NCBI GenBank assembly: GCA_902609285.1 | Contig: CACLRL010000007.1 | Coordinates: forward strand, 1 to 57,151 | Source: an uncultured Candidatus Actinomarina sp. | GTDB lineage: Bacteria > Actinomycetota > Acidimicrobiia > Actinomarinales > Actinomarinaceae | Length of the DNA: 57,151 nt | Direction: 5' to 3' | Shown here: positions 10,671 through 51,465 of the stretch, piece by piece | Layout of the letters: each line of letters begins with the position of its first letter | Position numbering within the stretch: the first letter of the stretch is position 1 | Program-made: the position numbers and the translations under genes | Notes under the pieces: generated by a model | Told to the model about the DNA's origin: nothing | Seen by the model: only the letters and a program-made list of their open reading frames with translations | Database searches by the model: none

Positions 10671-10743
10671 TCCGAGGTAGCTCAATTGGCAGAGCAGCGG
10701 ACTGTTAATCCGTTGGTTGTGGGTTCAAGTCCCACCCTCGGAG
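10671..10743 (+). tRNA. tRNA-Asn (GTT)
   Basis: TCCGAGG...CCTCGGA acceptor stem, anticodon loop actGTTaat, T-arm GGTTCAAGTCC; no encoded CCA. Confidence 0.95.
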
Positions 10744-10790
10744 CTTTTTTAAGTACGAAAAAAAAGTATACTTAATCTGAATGGAGGATA

Positions 10791-11081
10791 ATGGATAATT
10801 TAGTAGAACTGATTACTCAAAATGCAGAAGGAAAAGACCTTAGTGTTTTAGGTGGAACTGTGAAACTGGTTGTTGATGATCAAACTGTATTTGTAACACC
10901 TGAAGGAGATGTTTCTTCAAGCGATGAAGATGCAGACTGCACAATGACTATTGACTCTGAGACTATGCTGTCAATAATGAACGGTGAGACTAGTGGTCAA
11001 GCAGCTTTTATGACTGGAAAATTAAAAGTTTCTGGGGATATGGGTATCGCTTTAAAAACTCAAGCATTTTTGGGTAATTAA
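10791..11081 (+). CDS. SCP2 sterol-binding domain protein
   Basis: DCTMTIDSETMLSIMNGETSGQAAFMTGKLKVSGDMGIALKTQAF is SCP2-like; GGAGG ribosome-binding site upstream. Confidence 0.85.
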   Translation: MDNLVELITQNAEGKDLSVLGGTVKLVVDDQTVFVTPEGDVSSSDEDADCTMTIDSETMLSIMNGETSGQAAFMTGKLKVSGDMGIALKTQAFLGN

Positions 11082-11091
11082 ATTAAAATTG

Positions 11092-11165
11092 GGGCCTGTA
11101 GCTCAGTTGGTTAGAGCAACGGACTCATAATCCGTCGGTCGCAGGTTCGAGTCCTGCCGGGCCCA
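11092..11165 (+). tRNA. tRNA with CAT anticodon (elongator Met, or lysidine-type Ile2)
   Basis: GGGCCTG...CGGGCCC acceptor (one G-U pair), anticodon loop actCATaat, T-arm GGTTCGAGTCC; no encoded CCA. Met versus Ile2 not resolved by eye. Confidence 0.92.
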
Positions 11166-11167
11166 CT

Positions 11168-13165
11168 GTGTATAAAAATATGATTATGAGCAAAATCAAT
11201 TCTCGTTTAATTGGATCAATTTTCGCTATAACATTATTAATTCCCCCAAATTTTGGTTTAAACCTTTATGGAATAAATTTTGAAGATATTCCATTGATAG
11301 GGATTTTTCTTATACTGCTATTAAATAAGTTAATGAATTTAAATCTTGATAGATTTGATATATCATTTCTTTCATTTTTTTTGACTTTTGTTATCTATAC
11401 AAGTCTCTTTATGAAAGAAATAAATTTGCTAAATCAAACAAATTTAAGATTCTACTTTTATTTTGCTCTTACTTATCTGTGTGTTGATTTTTTAAGAAAA
11501 AATAACTACAACATAATTGAAATTTTTCAACCTCTAGTGTTTGTTATGATTGCCAATTTTGTACTAATTATTTTTCAAATTGAACTGCCTGGAACAATTG
11601 ATGGTTGGATTAGTAATAATACTAATAGCGCTAATCCCTTAACCTCGGGTAGGCTTGGTGGGTTTCAAGGCGGGGGACCAAATGTAATTGGAATTATTTG
11701 TGCAATATCCTCTTTAATTTGTATTTACAACATAACTCAAAGTAAAAGCTTTAAAAAACATATATTTGAAGATAAGTTAAATTCTTTTTTTCTAATAATT
11801 TCATTACTTAATCTCTACTTAACATTTTCTAGAGGCTCTTACCTTGCTTTTGTTGTTGGTTTGTTGATAATTTTGTTATTTAGTAATTCAATCAACAAAA
11901 AATCCAAAATATACTTTTCAATTGGGACTTTGGGAATTTCTTTAATAGCTATATTTTTGTTTCCATCAATATTTTTAAAACAGTCAAACAGAGGATATCT
12001 CAGCTCCATTGCGATAATAAATATCGAAATTTTAAATGGAACTGGGGGTGGTAATTACATTAAGGAAGTCTATAAAGATTATCTTGTGACTTTAGACGAT
12101 GATACTTTAATTGATAAATTTAATATAGAGTATTCAGCCAATCAAAAAAAAGACATTAAGCCATCAAATGATGACAATAGTGAGAACCCAGCTCAAGGAT
12201 ATCTGAAAATGAAATTTGATTATAGAGATAATATATTACCTAGGTCTGTTGTTTCATTCTTTTTTTCGAACACTGGTGATGATTGGGTACAAATTGGTTC
12301 AAATCATACAAGCGGTGTAGTCATCGATTTATTTGATAATAGTTCATTTTTTGAAGTTGGTGGTTGGGCTGATGGACAGTCACCTGGAGGATCGTATCTC
12401 GATGGGTTTATAAACGACTTAACAATTAAAGTAGAAGAGTCTACTTACAGATATTATTTCACAGAAACCAACAGAGATAACAGCTATTTCATTTTTTTGC
12501 CAGCTTCAAAAGAATACTACGACAATAGGAATGACGGAAAAATAGTGTTTAAAGAAAATGGATTGAAATTGAAAAGACCACGCAGTTACTGGATTGCTAT
12601 TCCTAATGAAACAACTTTATCTGGTAAAGATTTTGAAATAACCCTAAATTTACATTTGGATAATATTCCAAAAGGAAATGAAACTTTGTTTAGTCAAAGT
12701 TCAATTTTAAAGATTGACGAAAAAGAAAATAATCAATCATGGAAGTGGTCAATTGTAGATGGAAAAATGTATTTCTTTTGGGTTGATGATATACAAAGTG
12801 GTTATTCGAACTTTTTAGGTGGTCAGAGTTTGAGATCTGGGCAATTGATTGCAGATGATGGAAAATTTAATACAATTATCTCAGAATTCTCTTTGTCACA
12901 ATTCGATGAAATTACAACCTCACATAACGGCTTTTTAACTATGGCAGTAGAGTATGGATTAATAATTGTTTTATTAATTTTATTGCTAATTTTTTATTCG
13001 ATATTTAGTAATTTTAAAAGAGCTTACGATATAGAATTAGCATTACTTTTTATGCTTCTTACCCAAAATCTTACAAACGATTTAGTTTATGCTCCAGATG
13101 TAGCAATATATTTTTGGCTAATTCCATTGTTTTTGTTTGAAAAATCTTTAAGAATCAATAATTGA
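11168..13165 (+). CDS. O-antigen polymerase/ligase (Wzy/WaaL superfamily) with a large beta-rich insert in the main periplasmic loop; real start probably ATG 11180 or 11186
   Basis: Multiple TM segments; GRLGGFQGGGPN; YLTFSRGSYLAFVVG; GTGGGNY and HNGFLTMAVEYGL separated by ~290 polar, beta-rich residues. Confidence 0.82.
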   Translation: MYKNMIMSKINSRLIGSIFAITLLIPPNFGLNLYGINFEDIPLIGIFLILLLNKLMNLNLDRFDISFLSFFLTFVIYTSLFMKEINLLNQTNLRFYFYFALTYLCVDFLRKNNYNIIEIFQPLVFVMIANFVLIIFQIELPGTIDGWISNNTNSANPLTSGRLGGFQGGGPNVIGIICAISSLICIYNITQSKSFKKHIFEDKLNSFFLIISLLNLYLTFSRGSYLAFVVGLLIILLFSNSINKKSKIYFSIGTLGISLIAIFLFPSIFLKQSNRGYLSSIAIINIEILNGTGGGNYIKEVYKDYLVTLDDDTLIDKFNIEYSANQKKDIKPSNDDNSENPAQGYLKMKFDYRDNILPRSVVSFFFSNTGDDWVQIGSNHTSGVVIDLFDNSSFFEVGGWADGQSPGGSYLDGFINDLTIKVEESTYRYYFTETNRDNSYFIFLPASKEYYDNRNDGKIVFKENGLKLKRPRSYWIAIPNETTLSGKDFEITLNLHLDNIPKGNETLFSQSSILKIDEKENNQSWKWSIVDGKMYFFWVDDIQSGYSNFLGGQSLRSGQLIADDGKFNTIISEFSLSQFDEITTSHNGFLTMAVEYGLIIVLLILLLIFYSIFSNFKRAYDIELALLFMLLTQNLTNDLVYAPDVAIYFWLIPLFLFEKSLRINN

Positions 13166-14278
13166 GTTCTTACTTAAAAAGTTTTTTATTGTCTCATTTA
13201 AAACTAAAACTTGTCTTCCATCTGACAAAGTTAGGTAATTTACCGGAGTTGTAAATTTATTTACATTATTTAGGTCAATGTTTCTAAATGTCCACAAGAT
13301 ATCTACAGCTTTATTTATTGTTAAGTTTTCATCAATAACGAAAGCATTCTCCAGTGCTTTTATAAAGGCATAAAGTTCATTGACAGATTCAAAATTTGTT
13401 AATTCATTGATAAGTTGCATTACTACATATTGCTGTCTTTCAATTCTTGATAAATCGCTAACTCCCGGCATAGGACGCCAATTTGAAATATCGTTACCAT
13501 CCTTATCAACAATTTTTTCTCCTACTAAGACCTCTGTAGATCTAGATACGACCCAATTTAAGGTGGCCAATCCATTGACTGTTTGGCATCCTTTTTGTAA
13601 TTCAAAACTAAATCCTTCTCTTTGAGTCTCATCTACACATATCTCTATCCCATCTACAGAGTCAATAATTTCTTCAAAACCTTCAAAATCGAAACTAGCA
13701 AAATGATTAATTCTTATCCCAGAGATACTGTAAATTGCAGCAGCTAAATTTTCTGCTCTTCCACCGCAATCATTTTTAATATATGAAGCATTTATTCTTT
13801 CTAAATTATTCGTACAATTATTTTTTATCAATAAATCTCTTGGAAAAGACAAAAGTGTAATTTTTTCTGTTTCTTTTTCAATAAGACCGAGAATGATTAC
13901 ATCTGCTCTTTTACCTTCCACATCACCTCTTGTTTCGGCAATTTTTTTTGATCTTTCGTCAGAACCGATAAGCAGGTATGCATCAAAATTATCAAGCTCT
14001 TCCTCGAAATTGTTGTAAAGTAATAATTCTTCAATTTGAGACTTATCTTCGCTTGAGATAATCAATTGATTTTCCAAATTTTCGGTTGCTTGAACTTCAG
14101 ATGAATTATTATTTTCAGGTTTTATAAGAGTTGTTGTAGTGACACCATCAACAATGTCATCTATAACTTCTTGACTAAATTCTTCGGTTTCTAGATTTGG
14201 CAAAAAAACTAAAATAATTATTGCTGCAATACTTATTAATCCAAGAAAAAGAAAAGTGTATTTATTAAAAATATTCAT
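13148..14278 (-). CDS. LytR-CpsA-Psr (LCP) family cell-wall polymer ligase
   Basis: N-terminal TM; YLLIGSDER, RADVIILG, LLSFPRDLLI, RINASY, GFEEIIDSVDGIEICV. Confidence 0.93.
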   Translation of the reverse strand: MNIFNKYTFLFLGLISIAAIIILVFLPNLETEEFSQEVIDDIVDGVTTTTLIKPENNNSSEVQATENLENQLIISSEDKSQIEELLLYNNFEEELDNFDAYLLIGSDERSKKIAETRGDVEGKRADVIILGLIEKETEKITLLSFPRDLLIKNNCTNNLERINASYIKNDCGGRAENLAAAIYSISGIRINHFASFDFEGFEEIIDSVDGIEICVDETQREGFSFELQKGCQTVNGLATLNWVVSRSTEVLVGEKIVDKDGNDISNWRPMPGVSDLSRIERQQYVVMQLINELTNFESVNELYAFIKALENAFVIDENLTINKAVDILWTFRNIDLNNVNKFTTPVNYLTLSDGRQVLVLNETIKNFLSKNSIIDS

Positions 14279-14328
14279 TAGATACCAAATTACATAGTAT
14301 AACTGTGTATTCTTTAATTGTGAAAAAT

Positions 14329-15033
14329 ATGAAATGTGTAATTGCAGCAGGGGGATTAGGAACCAGACTTCAAAATTTTAGAGATAATAAATCTACGAAA
14401 ATCTTATTAGAGGTAAATGGAGCTCCTATGATTAACCAACAAATAAAACAATTAAACAATTGGGGATTCGAAAATTTTGTAATAATTACAAATCCCGAAT
14501 ACTCAGATCTTATTCAAGATGTTGTAAAAAAAGCTCATAGTGAATTTCACATAGAATTTTCTGTTCAAGACAAGCCAAAAGGTATATCTCACGCTCTTCT
14601 ACAAGCAGAACATATTGTAAATAATGAGAAATTATTTTTTGTATTAGGAGATAATTTTTTTGAAAAGAATCCACTAGAAGGTTTTGATTTAGACGATTTC
14701 AAAGAAGGTGCATATATCTTTACAAAATCAGTAGATAACCCCAAAGAATTTGGAGTTGCCCAAATGGATAAAGAAGGAAATGTAATATCTATAGAAGAAA
14801 AACCCGAAATGCCTAAATCAAATAATGCAGTAGTTGGGGTATATATGTTTGATGAATCTGTATTTGAGATGATTTCAACCCTTCAACCATCAAAAAGAGG
14901 TGAATATGAAATAACCGATTTATGTAATTTATATGTCAATAATCAAAAGTGTAAAAATTTTTCAATTGACGGTTGGTGGATAGATGCCGGAACACCTGAA
15001 AGAATAATTGAACTTGAAGAGAAGTTAGGTTAA
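14329..15033 (+). CDS. Nucleotidyltransferase (RmlA-like sugar-phosphate NDP transferase)
   Basis: VIAAGGLGTRL...NKSTKILLEVNGAPMI; VLGDNFF; GWWIDAGTPERIIELE. Confidence 0.88.
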   Translation: MKCVIAAGGLGTRLQNFRDNKSTKILLEVNGAPMINQQIKQLNNWGFENFVIITNPEYSDLIQDVVKKAHSEFHIEFSVQDKPKGISHALLQAEHIVNNEKLFFVLGDNFFEKNPLEGFDLDDFKEGAYIFTKSVDNPKEFGVAQMDKEGNVISIEEKPEMPKSNNAVVGVYMFDESVFEMISTLQPSKRGEYEITDLCNLYVNNQKCKNFSIDGWWIDAGTPERIIELEEKLG

Positions 15034-16065
15034 TACTTTCAATCTTATTGAAATAAAATAAGTTAGAAAATAAATGAAAAATAAGGCTCCAATAAGCAAA
15101 TATGACATTTGTGTTGATGTAAATATTGAAAGATAAATTAATGCAAAAGTTCCGAGACTATAAATTAGAAATATAGAAAGAACTTTTTTTTCAGAAAATC
15201 CTTTGGCAAGCAATCTATGTGAGATATGGTCTGTTCCACCAGTAGTAGGGGATTTACCAATACTTATTCGGTAAGTTACCACAACAAGAAAATCAAGTAT
15301 AGGTACAGAAAAAATCAACAAAACAGGACTTAGTGTAGATGTATAAACAGTAATATCTTTTGGAGCCCAATTATATAGAATGCTCATAAACCCAAGACAG
15401 AAACCGATAAATAAACTACCAGAATCTCCAAAATATAGTTTTGCAGGTGGAAAATTGAAAAATAAAAAACCTCCAATTGCACAAAGTAACAGAATAGAAA
15501 TATCTGTTAATTTATATTGGTTTAAATAATTTGTTAATAGTGCAATCTGTATACAAATTGCTGATGAAACAACTACAGCAAGCCCGTCCATATTATCTAT
15601 AAAATTTATTGCATTCATTATCAATATAATCCAAATCGTTGAGACAATAAAATTTACATAATTATCACTTTCTATCCCGATTAACGATTCAAAATTTATA
15701 AAAATATTTAAATTGTAGAGAGGTATGTAAACAATAACTATTTGGAAAATGAGTTTTAAATACCATTTAAAATTGTATAAGTCATCCACCAAGCCTAAAA
15801 CTGAAATTACTACCGCAAAAAAGCCAATATAAAGAAAATTACTTTCTGCTTGTCCTAGAAGTCTTGTAGATATCAAAAATGCAATAGAACATGCAATACC
15901 ACCAAATGGAGGAACATATCTTGAAGAAAGTCTTTTTTCATTTTTTCTGTTTTTTGGAATAAAATCATGGGTTCTTTTTAGTGTTATCCAATTAAAAAGT
16001 AACGACAGTAAGATTGTTCCTATTGCGGCACTTTCTAGAGAGACTTGAAAATTAGATAAATTCAC
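15025..16065 (-). CDS. WecA/TagO/MraY-family undecaprenyl-phosphate sugar-1-P transferase
   Basis: Polytopic; VPPFGGIACSIAFL, GLVDDLYNFKWYLKL, NAINFIDNMDGLA, PPAKLYFGDSGSLFIGF. Confidence 0.93.
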   Translation of the reverse strand: MNLSNFQVSLESAAIGTILLSLLFNWITLKRTHDFIPKNRKNEKRLSSRYVPPFGGIACSIAFLISTRLLGQAESNFLYIGFFAVVISVLGLVDDLYNFKWYLKLIFQIVIVYIPLYNLNIFINFESLIGIESDNYVNFIVSTIWIILIMNAINFIDNMDGLAVVVSSAICIQIALLTNYLNQYKLTDISILLLCAIGGFLFFNFPPAKLYFGDSGSLFIGFCLGFMSILYNWAPKDITVYTSTLSPVLLIFSVPILDFLVVVTYRISIGKSPTTGGTDHISHRLLAKGFSEKKVLSIFLIYSLGTFALIYLSIFTSTQMSYLLIGALFFIYFLTYFISIRLKVLT

Positions 16066-23584: not shown

Positions 23585-24760
23585 ATAAATACGCTTAAAA
23601 GCCTTTCACCTTTATACTTTCTTTTTTTCATTTCAATAATTCCTCACTTTGATCTCATTCCTGGATTTATCCATACAGACGATGTTCCTGTATTGCTATT
23701 TTTTGTAGGAGCAATATATCTATTTGTTAAAAGTAAGAATTTTTCCTTAATAATTGAAAAATACATGTATTTTCTGTTTTTTATTTTTTATTTAATTGTT
23801 CAAAATCTTTTTGTCAAAGGTGAATTCTTACACTCTGAAATATTACGTTTTGGATTTTATCTATTAATTTTTATATTTATATCAACATTTGGACAAAAAA
23901 ATTATATAAATACTTTCCCGTACTACCTATTTTTATTTTTAACTTCGTTTTCAATGATTTCATATCTATTTTCAATAAACCTTGGTAAAGATATATACGA
24001 GACATGGAATATTGGCATTAACCTAAGTGACATAGATTATATCAAAGGTAGAACAAATGGATTTCAAGCAGGGGGTCCAAATAGCTTCGCTGATTTAATT
24101 ACCATAACCGCTGTCTATTCAATGTTTAGAATGGATAAAAAGTACTTACAAGTCATTATTCCATTTTCAATTGTTGGCTGTTTTTTTACTTACTCTCGTT
24201 TCTCTTTACTTATATTGGTTCTATTTATATTTTTGAGGATCAGCATCGAAAATAAAAAGTCTACTGGATTACTGCTCTTAATTGGTTCATTATTGATATG
24301 CGTCAATTTTGGATTAGTTGAAAGATTTTCTCAAGATGATAATAGCGGAGTCCAAGACAGGGTTGAGATGCAATCAGGAACATTAGAGTTTGTAGCTGAT
24401 GATTCTCTTGTAAATAATATTTTTGGAAGAGGATTTGATACATTTGTAGTGAAAGGCAATCAAGTGCTTGATTCAAAAAATTTTGATGACAATCCTTTCT
24501 CCTATGGTCCACATAATTCATACTTATTTATATTTTTAAATTATGGGATTATCGGTCTTTTATTATTTATATTGATTTTTAAAGATCTTATATTAAATCT
24601 TGTAAAATTTAGAGATTTTAAAAATTACTCACCGAACTTGATGGCTGTTATAGCATTTCTTGTTTTAAGTCTATCTAGTGATCTGTTACAAAATCATTCT
24701 GTATCTTGGTTTTTTTATTTTAGCTACTTCTTGTATCTGAATGAGAAAGAGAATTCTTGA
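23585..24760 (+). CDS. O-antigen polymerase/ligase (Wzy/WaaL-like); true N-terminus likely upstream of the ORF-track start at 23693, with a non-canonical start
   Basis: Polytopic; GRTNGFQAGGPN shared with the 11168 protein; GRGFDTF...GPHNSYLFIFLNYGIIG. Frame open back to 23585, but no ATG/GTG/TTG/CTG between the stop at 23582-23584 and TTG 23693. Confidence 0.75.
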   Translation: MNTLKSLSPLYFLFFISIIPHFDLIPGFIHTDDVPVLLFFVGAIYLFVKSKNFSLIIEKYMYFLFFIFYLIVQNLFVKGEFLHSEILRFGFYLLIFIFISTFGQKNYINTFPYYLFLFLTSFSMISYLFSINLGKDIYETWNIGINLSDIDYIKGRTNGFQAGGPNSFADLITITAVYSMFRMDKKYLQVIIPFSIVGCFFTYSRFSLLILVLFIFLRISIENKKSTGLLLLIGSLLICVNFGLVERFSQDDNSGVQDRVEMQSGTLEFVADDSLVNNIFGRGFDTFVVKGNQVLDSKNFDDNPFSYGPHNSYLFIFLNYGIIGLLLFILIFKDLILNLVKFRDFKNYSPNLMAVIAFLVLSLSSDLLQNHSVSWFFYFSYFLYLNEKENS

Positions 24761-33132: not shown

Positions 33133-34759
33133 ACTTTTTTTACAAAGAATAAGATTTAAATTTAGAAACTTATTCGCAAAGAAAATAATTATCCCCGCAG
33201 ATTTTAAATCTTTTGAATACGCAATTCCAAAATATCATGAGTTATTGGTTTCTTATTTATTGTTAAATAAAGATTACGAAATTAATTATTCTAAAAAAAT
33301 ATTTGGTAAGGAAACCGATAATTTAGTAACTTCTATAGATATTTTTAGTGAAACTGATTTCAAATCACATAATAAATTTATTCCTGCTTATTTTGACAAA
33401 GGTGATGTAAAAGTCCCATATGAAGCCTCAAGGCTTCAATTTTTACAAAAATTAGATTTATTGTCTGTTTTGAATAAAGATCATGATTTAAACGAAAATG
33501 TAGACATTAACAATTTTCCCTTAATTTACTGGAATAGTCCTATGGATGTGGCAATTAGAAATATAAATCTTATTTTTCATAGAAATTTTTTAGAGAAAAA
33601 TGACTTAGATTCAAAAATTCTGGGAAATAATAAAGATTTAATTGATACATATATAAGCCAACACTACCAATTCATTACCGAAAATCTTGAAAATCATGGA
33701 AATGTTGTTGGAAATCATTATTTAATTCAACTATGTTCAATAATTTTGACGCTAGCAACATATAAATTTGACGGGCACGAAGATGAAGCTATTTATTATT
33801 TGAACGAGCTTAACAAAGAATTAAATAGACAATTTTACAAAGATGGAACTAATTTTGAAGGTTCATCCCACTATTCTGCATTTGTTACGGAAGCATTAAT
33901 TATTTTTAAACTTTCGTTAGATGAACTTCACCCTGATTCACCATTACTAGAATTGATTCAACAAAAAGTATCTTCAAATAGAAATTTATTAAATTTGCTT
34001 ATGATTAATGGAGAATTGTCTCAGATTGGCGACAATGATTCCGGAAGACTTTTTTATTTTTACCATGATGAAGACAACCCATTAAAAATGAACTGGTTAA
34101 TAGATCTCATTGATCATTTTTACAGTTTTGAAAATAAAAATACTACTGAAATACCAAATCTAAAAAATGATCCTGTAGATTTAACCGCTTATTCAAGGGT
34201 TGACCACCCTTTAATAAAAATATTTCAAAGTGATTTCAATCTTTATTCATATCCTGATTTTGGTATTTATATTTGGCGTAATGATAGGGGGTCAGAGTAC
34301 TTTAGTATCAGGTGTGGTCAAATAGGACAAAATAGTGTTGGTGGACATTCTCATTATGACCAGCTCTCAATTGAATGTTTTGCCACTAACAAATGGATAG
34401 CAAGAGATCCAGGAACTGGAACGTACACTGATGATATTAAAACAAGGAATGAATTCAGATCAATGAAATTTCATTGGGGACCAAATGCTGATATAGAATT
34501 TCCAAAAGAATCAGAGTTTGATTGTTTTAAGCTTAACTATATGGAAGATGGTAAAGTGTTATCTTTAGATAAAAATAATTTTTTAGGTAGTGCAATCTTT
34601 AACGGAAATAAAATATATAGGAAAATTGTAATTGAAAATGGAAATATACTAATAAGTGATTTTTCTAATGACGCTAATTTAAAACCATATGAAAATTGGG
34701 GAGAATTAAATGAAGGAGTTAAATTTAAATTCTCGAAAGGATACAAACGTATAAATTGA
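33125..34759 (+). CDS. Heparinase II/III family protein
   Basis: GNHYLIQL; FYKDGTNFEGSSHYSAFVTEAL; GGHSHYDQLSIECFATNKWIARDPGTGTYTDD. Confidence 0.85.
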   Translation: MLKLFLQRIRFKFRNLFAKKIIIPADFKSFEYAIPKYHELLVSYLLLNKDYEINYSKKIFGKETDNLVTSIDIFSETDFKSHNKFIPAYFDKGDVKVPYEASRLQFLQKLDLLSVLNKDHDLNENVDINNFPLIYWNSPMDVAIRNINLIFHRNFLEKNDLDSKILGNNKDLIDTYISQHYQFITENLENHGNVVGNHYLIQLCSIILTLATYKFDGHEDEAIYYLNELNKELNRQFYKDGTNFEGSSHYSAFVTEALIIFKLSLDELHPDSPLLELIQQKVSSNRNLLNLLMINGELSQIGDNDSGRLFYFYHDEDNPLKMNWLIDLIDHFYSFENKNTTEIPNLKNDPVDLTAYSRVDHPLIKIFQSDFNLYSYPDFGIYIWRNDRGSEYFSIRCGQIGQNSVGGHSHYDQLSIECFATNKWIARDPGTGTYTDDIKTRNEFRSMKFHWGPNADIEFPKESEFDCFKLNYMEDGKVLSLDKNNFLGSAIFNGNKIYRKIVIENGNILISDFSNDANLKPYENWGELNEGVKFKFSKGYKRIN

Positions 34760-36144
34760 AAACAAAAAAAATTACTCCACTTTTTTTTCTTTTTTTAATT
34801 GGTATATTCTTCGAAAGTCTTGATGCTTTTAGTTTATTTTCAATACCTTTGCCTTGGATAGGAATCTCAATTTTTATATTTATTTATATAATTTATTATT
34901 TTTTTGGTTTTGAAATTGAATTTAATCATTTCGATTCTTTGAGAATCTTACTTCTTTATTTTGTCACTATTACTTTAATTAGAGCTGTTTCATACAGCCC
35001 TGATCTACCTCAGTTTGCTACTTCAACATTCACTCAATATATTTCACTTAGACTTCTTAAGCTACTTGGATTTATTGCCGTTATTTGGTTTGTCTACACT
35101 TTAAGTAATTTTTTTGAACGAGATACGATTATAAAGTTTATTTCTTTCATAGGGATTTTTGTTTCTGCCATGTCTTTAATATCATATTTTTCATATATAT
35201 TTGATTTTCAGGACTTTTCAAGAAATAGACCTGGTTCTGGAGGTTGGTCACAACCAATAAAAAGAGCATGTTCTATCCTAAGAAATTATGGGACTTTCAG
35301 AGAACCAAGTTTCTTGGCAGTATGGTTAGCACCAATCATTCCTTTAAATTTTTATTTGGCGCGAAAACAATCAATTTGGTACGGATTGTCACTAATGCCA
35401 ATCCTCGCAATTATTTTATCAAGAAGCTTAACAGGTGTAATTAGCTTGATTATAGGGATCGTTGTTACAACTCTTCTTTGGACAATAAAAAATAAAAATT
35501 TTGATTTTTTATTTATTATTCCAATCATTTTTTTATTATGTTCTAGTTTTATAGGAAATAGTATCGGTTATAAATTTCCAGCATTAGATCCCTCAATGTG
35601 CCCACCAGAATCTCCTGATAAATGTAACTGTTCACTATATGACGATGAATTAGATGAAGCTAAAAATTCAGAAAGTGTAACACAAAGTATATTCGAGAGA
35701 ATAACTTTAATCACAAGGGGAGGGTTAGATGGTTTCGAAAATATATCTGTATTAAATGAATATATTTCTAATGAAAATCTTCAAATATTCGGACAAGGAT
35801 TAGGCATTGCTAACTTAAATTTCTCACCAACTTTTGATGAATTAACAAAGAAAAATATGAATGGAGAAATTGTTTATAGAAATCCAGGTCAGGTTGTCTC
35901 ATTTAATAATTTATATATAAATCTTTATTTTTCTTCAGGAATTGTCGGTTTATTATGGTTTTTTATATTTATATCGAACGTTTTGAAAAAACTTTATAAG
36001 AGAGGGAATGAATATACCTTTTATATCTTTTCAAATTTAATAGTAATCTTATTAATGTTTTTCTTCCAAGCAGAGGAATTAAGTACGATGTTAGCAATCT
36101 CACTAGGTTTGATGCTTCTAGAATTTAAAAATGAAAAAGTATAA
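34756..36144 (+). CDS. O-antigen polymerase/ligase-like membrane protein
   Basis: Polytopic; NYGTFREPSFLAVWLAP; IFGQGLGIANLNF...FNNLYINLYFSSGIVGLLWFF. Confidence 0.8.
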   Translation: MKTKKITPLFFLFLIGIFFESLDAFSLFSIPLPWIGISIFIFIYIIYYFFGFEIEFNHFDSLRILLLYFVTITLIRAVSYSPDLPQFATSTFTQYISLRLLKLLGFIAVIWFVYTLSNFFERDTIIKFISFIGIFVSAMSLISYFSYIFDFQDFSRNRPGSGGWSQPIKRACSILRNYGTFREPSFLAVWLAPIIPLNFYLARKQSIWYGLSLMPILAIILSRSLTGVISLIIGIVVTTLLWTIKNKNFDFLFIIPIIFLLCSSFIGNSIGYKFPALDPSMCPPESPDKCNCSLYDDELDEAKNSESVTQSIFERITLITRGGLDGFENISVLNEYISNENLQIFGQGLGIANLNFSPTFDELTKKNMNGEIVYRNPGQVVSFNNLYINLYFSSGIVGLLWFFIFISNVLKKLYKRGNEYTFYIFSNLIVILLMFFFQAEELSTMLAISLGLMLLEFKNEKV

Positions 36145-51078: not shown

Positions 51079-51102
51079 GGGTGCCTCATTGAAGAGACAC
51101 CC
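51079..51102 (-). terminator. Hairpin just downstream of rnpB; candidate terminator or 3'-processing stem
   Basis: Minus strand GGGTGTCTC-TTCAAT-GAGGCACCC, a 9-bp stem with one G-U pair. A T-tract is absent on the minus-strand 3' side (ACCTAAAAAATAAAT). Confidence 0.5.
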
Positions 51103-51110
51103 AAGTTTTT

Positions 51111-51435
51111 GAAGCTATAAGCCGGATTCTGTTTACACAAAATGTGTAAGATAATCATCCATCTTGTATATTTGTTACCAAATATATCTAGCTACCTACC
51201 CACAATTTTTAGCTGAGCAAGCTAATTGCTTTTTGGTATTGCTCCGAGAGGGGTTTACAAGCTAATTTAATCTCTTAAATCACTGGTAGTCTCTTACACT
51301 ACCGTTTCACCCTTACCTACAAAGTAGGCGGTTTATTTTCTGTTGCACTTTCCGTCAATTTCTTGCCTGGGAGTTACCCAGCTCTCTGCTCTATGGAGTC
51401 CGGACTTTCCTCGATAAATCGCGATTATCCACTTC
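51111..51435 (-). ncRNA. rnpB: RNase P RNA
   Basis: Reverse complement has GAGGAAAGTCCGGACTCCATAGAGCAG, GTGCAACAGAAAATAAACCGCC, GGTAAGGGTGAAACGGTAG, AAACCCCTCTCGGAGCAATACCAAA, ACAGAATCCGGCTTATAG. End coordinates approximate. Confidence 0.96.
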
Positions 51436-51465
51436 ACAAATTAACGATAGTATAAAAATGAATTC

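Follow-up and report, generated by a model that had tools for sequence, protein, structure and literature searches.

It is an open question how Wzy-type enzymes select their acceptors and set the length of their chains, and the known answers mostly involve separate partners, e.g. Wzz. Members of the Wzy_C/WaaL family (PF04932, PDB 7TPG) have a common membrane part, an SRG motif and a large extracytoplasmic loop that is preceded by a GxG motif and followed by an HN motif. Ligase-type membrane enzymes may carry a second globular domain, as described for the bimodular O-antigen ligase WadA, in which GT121 is joined to GT25 (PMC10920833). In the order Actinomarinales, each genome contains one flexible envelope-polysaccharide island with tRNAs as hot spots, and the wall composition of the order has been called unknown (PMC7771536).

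Here we describe a Wzy_C-type protein from Candidatus Actinomarina, encoded in a stretch of 57,151 nucleotides (the window). Like WadA it combines a ligase-type membrane enzyme with a second globular domain; whereas that of WadA is an appended glycosyltransferase (PMC10920833), the domain found here is lectin-like and lies inside the catalytic loop. The window protein shares the membrane part and the motifs with the Wzy_C family and differs from it in a beta-sandwich of about 240 amino acids in this loop.

The polymerase gene and its membrane part

The reading frame at 11168-13165 (plus strand) is open throughout and encodes a protein of 665 amino acids from a GTG start. Since the gene for tRNA-Met ends at 11166, two bases ahead of this GTG, an ATG at 11180 or 11186 was considered and may be the true start. 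Compared with the Pfam model Wzy_C, the protein aligned in two separated stretches, the best of which (residues 207-265 to model positions 1-58) had an E-value of 2.2e-6, and its score of 28 bits remained just under the cut-off of 31.7. Both the split and the low score result from an insert of about 290 residues between the motifs G291-x-G-x-G-x-Y297 and T583-T-x-H586-N-G. PF04932 was matched by 22 of 22 members of the orthologue set. The N-terminal Wzy_C part ends with GTGGGNY (residues 291-297, 12038-12058, plus strand), in which G291, G293, G295 and Y297 are invariant; the C-terminal part carries the motif TTSHNGFLTMAVEYGL (residues 583-598, 12914-12961, plus strand) with the invariant H586. 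AlphaFold2 (AF2) modelled the membrane part as helices, and Foldseek matched it to WaaL (7tpg_B) with a probability of 0.93 and a TMt of 0.39. The protein is accordingly classified by reading frame, Pfam and Foldseek as a member of the Wzy_C superfamily, a putative lipid-linked glycan polymerase or ligase whose activity is predicted from its context. By homology, the large loop near the C terminus with H586 would be extracytoplasmic.

The preliminary description of the window had proposed an interruption of the Wzy_C loop by about 290 residues. The open frame, the split Pfam match and the presence of the same insert throughout an alignment of 25 intact proteins of full length, 24 of them orthologues of the window protein, confirm this proposal; the coordinates were right to within a base and the cited peptides lie where they had been placed. 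Such an insert is not routine among the Wzy_C matches listed in the class, where the whole domain spans about 115-190 codons. The window contains a paralogue which had been assigned to 23585-24760. It is real (Wzy_C, E 4.9e-12) and has the short loop ascribed to it, but with a normal start codon its frame starts at 23693 instead of 23585.

Fold of the insert

Four segments were distinguished in the insert, all on the plus strand. A helical or low-confidence linker (residues 298-343, 12059-12196), delimited by alignment and AF2, is followed by the C-terminal half of a LamG/ConA-like sandwich (residues 344-424, 12197-12439), which is thus placed first and includes the invariant loop E396-x-G-G-x-x-D-G-Q-S405. 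Linker and strands of residues 425-470 (12440-12577; AF2, profile alignment, rotation scan) connect the natural C terminus of the sandwich to its natural N terminus. The N-terminal half (residues 471-575, 12578-12892; profile alignments, rotation scan) is placed second.

The AF2 model, calculated from 26 aligned inserts, is neither disordered nor helical and shows one all-beta globular core of 15 strands with a pTM of 0.77. Overall confidence was moderate and lowest around the E396-S405 loop (residues 401-408, pLDDT < 50); low AF2 confidence is often seen at exposed sites. In a Foldseek search of the PDB, concanavalin A occupied ranks 1, 2, 4, 5, 7, 8 and 17 and a related Canavalia lectin rank 10. 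The concanavalin A matches had probabilities up to 0.94, but an E-value of 0.02 and a TM-score of about 0.3. Among viral models the most probable match was a LamG-like jellyroll (probability 0.84). These results are no more than suggestive of a lectin-like fold. Concanavalin A and the permuted legume lectins, the best lectin matches, would resemble the insert also in being permuted beta-sandwiches. Concanavalin A is, in contrast, a secreted plant lectin without sequence similarity to the insert, and its permutation is post-translational.

Sequence searches with the native insert against Pfam, NCBIfam, PHROGs and PDB sequences gave nothing useful. PF13385 and related Pfam LamG models matched the insert neither in native nor in permuted order, and a single orthologue reached a LamG-type Pfam model at an E-value of 0.095. 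The beta-rich, possibly LamG/ConA-like nature that had been suggested for the insert is nevertheless supported by the all-beta model, by the concanavalin A matches and by homology to phage-tail proteins.

Circular permutation of the sandwich

When the sequence was inspected by eye, residues 344-424 resembled the second half of a LamG-type domain, whereas its first half was recognised in residues 471-545. The permutation was spotted in this way before it was tested; the alignments of single halves and the rotation scan reported below are independent of that choice. A profile in swapped order, searched on the class, retrieved a protein with canonical domains, and the match spanned the artificial junction. 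This protein of 674 amino acids (L178, G208:C1:273500-276800) carries LamG-like domains of phage-tail type in tandem and, after them, a region of RHS-like repeats; its domains are canonical-order relatives of the insert. Through them a family was reached that occurs in actinophage minor-tail proteins (PHROG 5313). Searches of viral contigs yielded no relatives. Actinomarina reading frames of 198 amino acids, which appeared in the genome search with the permuted profile (E 0.001-0.01), were not LamG-like on inspection and were discarded as false positives.

Profile-profile comparison in native order aligned the N-terminal half of the sandwich to template positions 25-95 and the C-terminal half to 108-190. 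Compared with the phage-tail family, the two halves have exchanged places and the strand order is non-canonical. Each half alone aligned to the same phage-tail template, with E-values of 3.6e-7 and 9.3e-5. In permuted order the insert matched the phage-tail family in one stretch of 136 columns (probability 97.1, E 6.8e-11), whereas 60 column-shuffled controls gave probabilities of at most 1.1. The same permutation was obtained after both alignments had been rebuilt and compared anew. In a rotation scan that assumed no junction, the score formed a plateau of 68-69 for starts between residues 404 and 476 and the best rotation covered the template end to end (11-190); the native start scored 47.8 and shuffled alignments reached a maximum of 16.6. 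Pfam scans of permuted single sequences yielded no match, so that the relationship became visible in profile-profile comparison alone.

We thus propose a circular permutation of the insert with high confidence on the sequence comparisons and with moderate confidence on the modelled fold. The architecture as such, a beta-sandwich in the catalytic loop of a Wzy_C enzyme, is assigned with high confidence. Homology to the minor-tail domain extends over the whole domain after rotation; the insert differs in the opposite order of its halves, in being embedded in a membrane enzyme and in its extra invariant DGQS loop. As a consequence of the permutation, the polymerase chain would enter and leave the sandwich via an internal loop and not via the natural ends. 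The source was probably a junction in a tandem array of domains like those of actinophage minor-tail proteins. The tie of the phage-tail family to Pfam LamG is weak (Laminin_G_3 at E 0.056 in one member; hhalign probability 4.5, though collinear), and a LamG profile built from Acidimicrobiia Pfam matches was too diverse to reach significance. The label 'ConA/LamG-like' is therefore based mainly on the fold. In the literature searched, we found no paper naming both Wzy_C and LamG, and the three papers naming laminin G together with circular permutation were, judged by title and abstract, not about such a domain.

A long form with an SLH triplet

Orthologues from 11 genomes contain an extra module of about 165 amino acids in the same loop, inserted after approximately residue 334 and just before the sandwich. 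It has eight invariant cysteines. Actinomarina proteins of roughly 990 amino acids contain this module too, together with SpoIID and peptidoglycan-binding domains. Part of it is also present in secreted proteins of the class (SpoIID, amidase and others), and in these Pfam recognises SLH. Pfam did not call SLH on the long-form polymerases themselves. In hhalign, the long-form module aligned with its SLH relatives over all three repeats (probability 97.7, E 1.3e-12, null 0.5), and by this comparison it is identified as an SLH triplet of the cysteine type that secreted wall enzymes possess as well. Those Acidimicrobiia enzymes are soluble and secreted, whereas the long-form triplet is located inside a polymerase loop. 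The window protein is a short form without the triplet, and the module had no match in the window's genome.

An extracytoplasmic position of the loop is suggested by the even number of invariant cysteines as well as by the SLH module, and the extracytoplasmic placement of the insert in the preliminary description is upheld. A single branch sets the long forms apart in the membrane-part tree and likewise in the insert tree; about one third of the lineage carries an SLH triplet in the catalytic loop. The secreted SpoIID protein of about 990 amino acids, with peptidoglycan-binding domains and a cysteine-type SLH triplet uncalled by Pfam (e.g. L119, G012:C5, and L126, G031:C3), is encoded in nearly all Actinomarina genomes searched.

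Occurrence and gene neighbourhood

The insert-bearing gene was present in 31 of the 42 genomes of the order, in one copy each and exclusively within Candidatus Actinomarina, including all eight Actinomarina genomes that are at least 90% complete. It is a near-universal single-copy gene of this genus, a status which, like the circular permutation and the SLH-bearing long form, goes beyond the preliminary description. The 31 carriers comprise 19 short forms (about 660 amino acids; two of these copies are partial at contig ends), 11 long forms (796-834 amino acids) and one broken copy. The latter (L095, G065:C1:212749-213619; genome of 600 kb in 4 contigs) is interrupted by several stops in different frames; sequencing indels or decay may account for them. 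A search of 397 sampled genomes of the phylum gave no match besides the window's own genome, in which a second copy of the insert was not found.

On average the insert core is more conserved (mean pairwise identity 49%) than the membrane part (41%), and the two identities are correlated (r 0.92), indicating that the insert has evolved together with the enzyme and is not decaying. The invariant residues include the E396-S405 loop.

Wherever the fetched stretch reached, the gene order was identical in short and long forms: glyS, dnaG, SCP2-like, polymerase, LCP (convergent), nucleotidyltransferase, WecA-like, glycosyltransferase, UDP-glucose dehydrogenase (UGD) and UXS-like. In the window, the conserved convergent neighbour encodes a LytR-CpsA-Psr (LCP) protein (13148-14278, minus strand; PF03816, E 7.9e-25). 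It is followed by the genes for a sugar nucleotidyltransferase (NTP_transferase; 14305-15033, plus strand) and a WecA-like undecaprenyl-phosphate sugar-phosphate transferase (Glycos_transf_4; 15025-16065, minus strand), both assigned by Pfam and synteny. These neighbours are predicted to make nucleotide sugars and, through the WecA-like transferase, to start an undecaprenyl-linked glycan, which the LCP protein could attach to peptidoglycan. In six close backgrounds, glyS and the WecA-like protein were 82-89% identical to those of the window, in comparison to 53-59% for the polymerase, 65-74% for the LCP protein and 66-79% for the nucleotidyltransferase. The lower identity than that of the flanks suggests that the latter three vary together as a set.

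Proposed function and alternative explanations

Taken as a whole, the data are explained best by a Wzy_C enzyme that holds one circularly permuted LamG/ConA-like beta-sandwich (about residues 344-575) in its catalytic loop as a lid for glycan or wall; we consider this explanation reasonably probable. Most likely the lid is extracytoplasmic, binds glycan or wall and sits on a polymerase or ligase that cooperates with the adjacent LCP protein; the ligand, the position as a lid and a role in acceptor choice or chain length are features that we infer. The catalytic loop would have been opened between GxGxGxY and the catalytic-type H586 to accept one sandwich in the order natural C-terminal half, linker, N-terminal half. 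Positioned over the active site, the sandwich might keep either the chain under synthesis or an acceptor (glycan or wall) near H586, and its grip would aid acceptor selection and keep the chain attached. The finished undecaprenyl-linked glycan could then pass to the neighbouring LCP enzyme, which would attach it to peptidoglycan, while in the long form the SLH triplet would add a further wall contact. Many LamG domains bind proteins or only support structure, and glycan binding is therefore a guess from context. A more specific version, in which a lectin lid captured from a phage-tail-type domain grips the product or the acceptor and determines processivity or chain length, so replacing a separate co-polymerase, while SLH ties the enzyme to the wall in some lineages, is offered tentatively and appears rather doubtful.

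The sandwich could alternatively capture the acceptor of a ligase, either WaaL-like or a protein O-glycosyltransferase. This assignment overlaps with our preferred explanation and is a real possibility, if not the one we lean to. Wzy_C takes in ligases too, the Foldseek match of the membrane part is WaaL, and with five Wzy_C matches in the genome another member could be the polymerase, the conserved one being that which adjoins LCP. On the other hand, no acceptor is known, and ligation could already be the task of the LCP protein. It is also conceivable, albeit unlikely, that the LamG-like scaffold binds no sugar and serves as a structural platform or docks a protein such as LCP or a Wzz-like partner. 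The protein-binding habit of many LamG domains would fit, as would the constant adjacency of the LCP gene and the codivergence of polymerase, LCP and nucleotidyltransferase in six backgrounds, which is expected for one product or for contacting proteins. The nearest relatives of the insert, however, are found in phage minor-tail proteins, which commonly recognise surface glycans; the SLH triplet of the long form is a wall-binding type of module, and the polar loop D402-G-Q-S405, which is invariant, resembles a ligand site.

Two further explanations dispense with the permuted domain or with the gene itself. That Pfam recognises the insert in neither order and that AF2 confidence is moderate would suit two unrelated half-size beta modules resembling the halves of a phage-tail domain by chance or convergence. 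This is improbable given that both halves align independently to the same template, that rotation produces one continuous end-to-end alignment far above the shuffles and that AF2 builds a single globular domain. An assembly fusion of the polymerase with another gene might be suspected in a 0.93-Mb draft genome of 37 contigs and 79% completeness. It was rejected and has a negligible probability, as orthologues with the same insert occupy the same syntenic place, with conserved flanks, in many genomes that were assembled separately, among them records bearing the name Actinomarina.

Under the preferred explanation of a glycan- or wall-binding lid, the architecture suggests that the polymerase carries its own sugar- or wall-gripping part. 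With a lectin-type module exactly in the catalytic loop, joined by an SLH triplet in sister lineages, the question of acceptor and chain length becomes addressable in one protein. In addition, the locus provides a clear example from nature of a domain that was both inserted and circularly permuted, in a near-universal gene of a marine actinobacterium that is highly streamlined and has a wall of unknown chemistry (PMC7771536).

Other observations in the window

In the six close backgrounds, the block 11168-15033 (polymerase, LCP protein and nucleotidyltransferase) has diverged far more than the genes on either side, as if replaced as an allele. Upstream of it (10671-11166), a gene for an SCP2-like protein of 96 amino acids (10791-11081) is flanked by tRNA-Asn and tRNA-Met. 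The identities to its relatives fall into two groups, 88-100% and 49-58%, and do not parallel those of the neighbours; in one locus (L048) the SCP2-like gene was 89% identical and dnaG 52%. This suggests a small tRNA-flanked SCP2-like cassette exchanged between lineages. A third Wzy-like membrane protein of 462 amino acids with a weak Wzy_C match is encoded in the same island (34756-36144), and a bacterial RNase P class A RNA is located at 51102-51440 on the minus strand.
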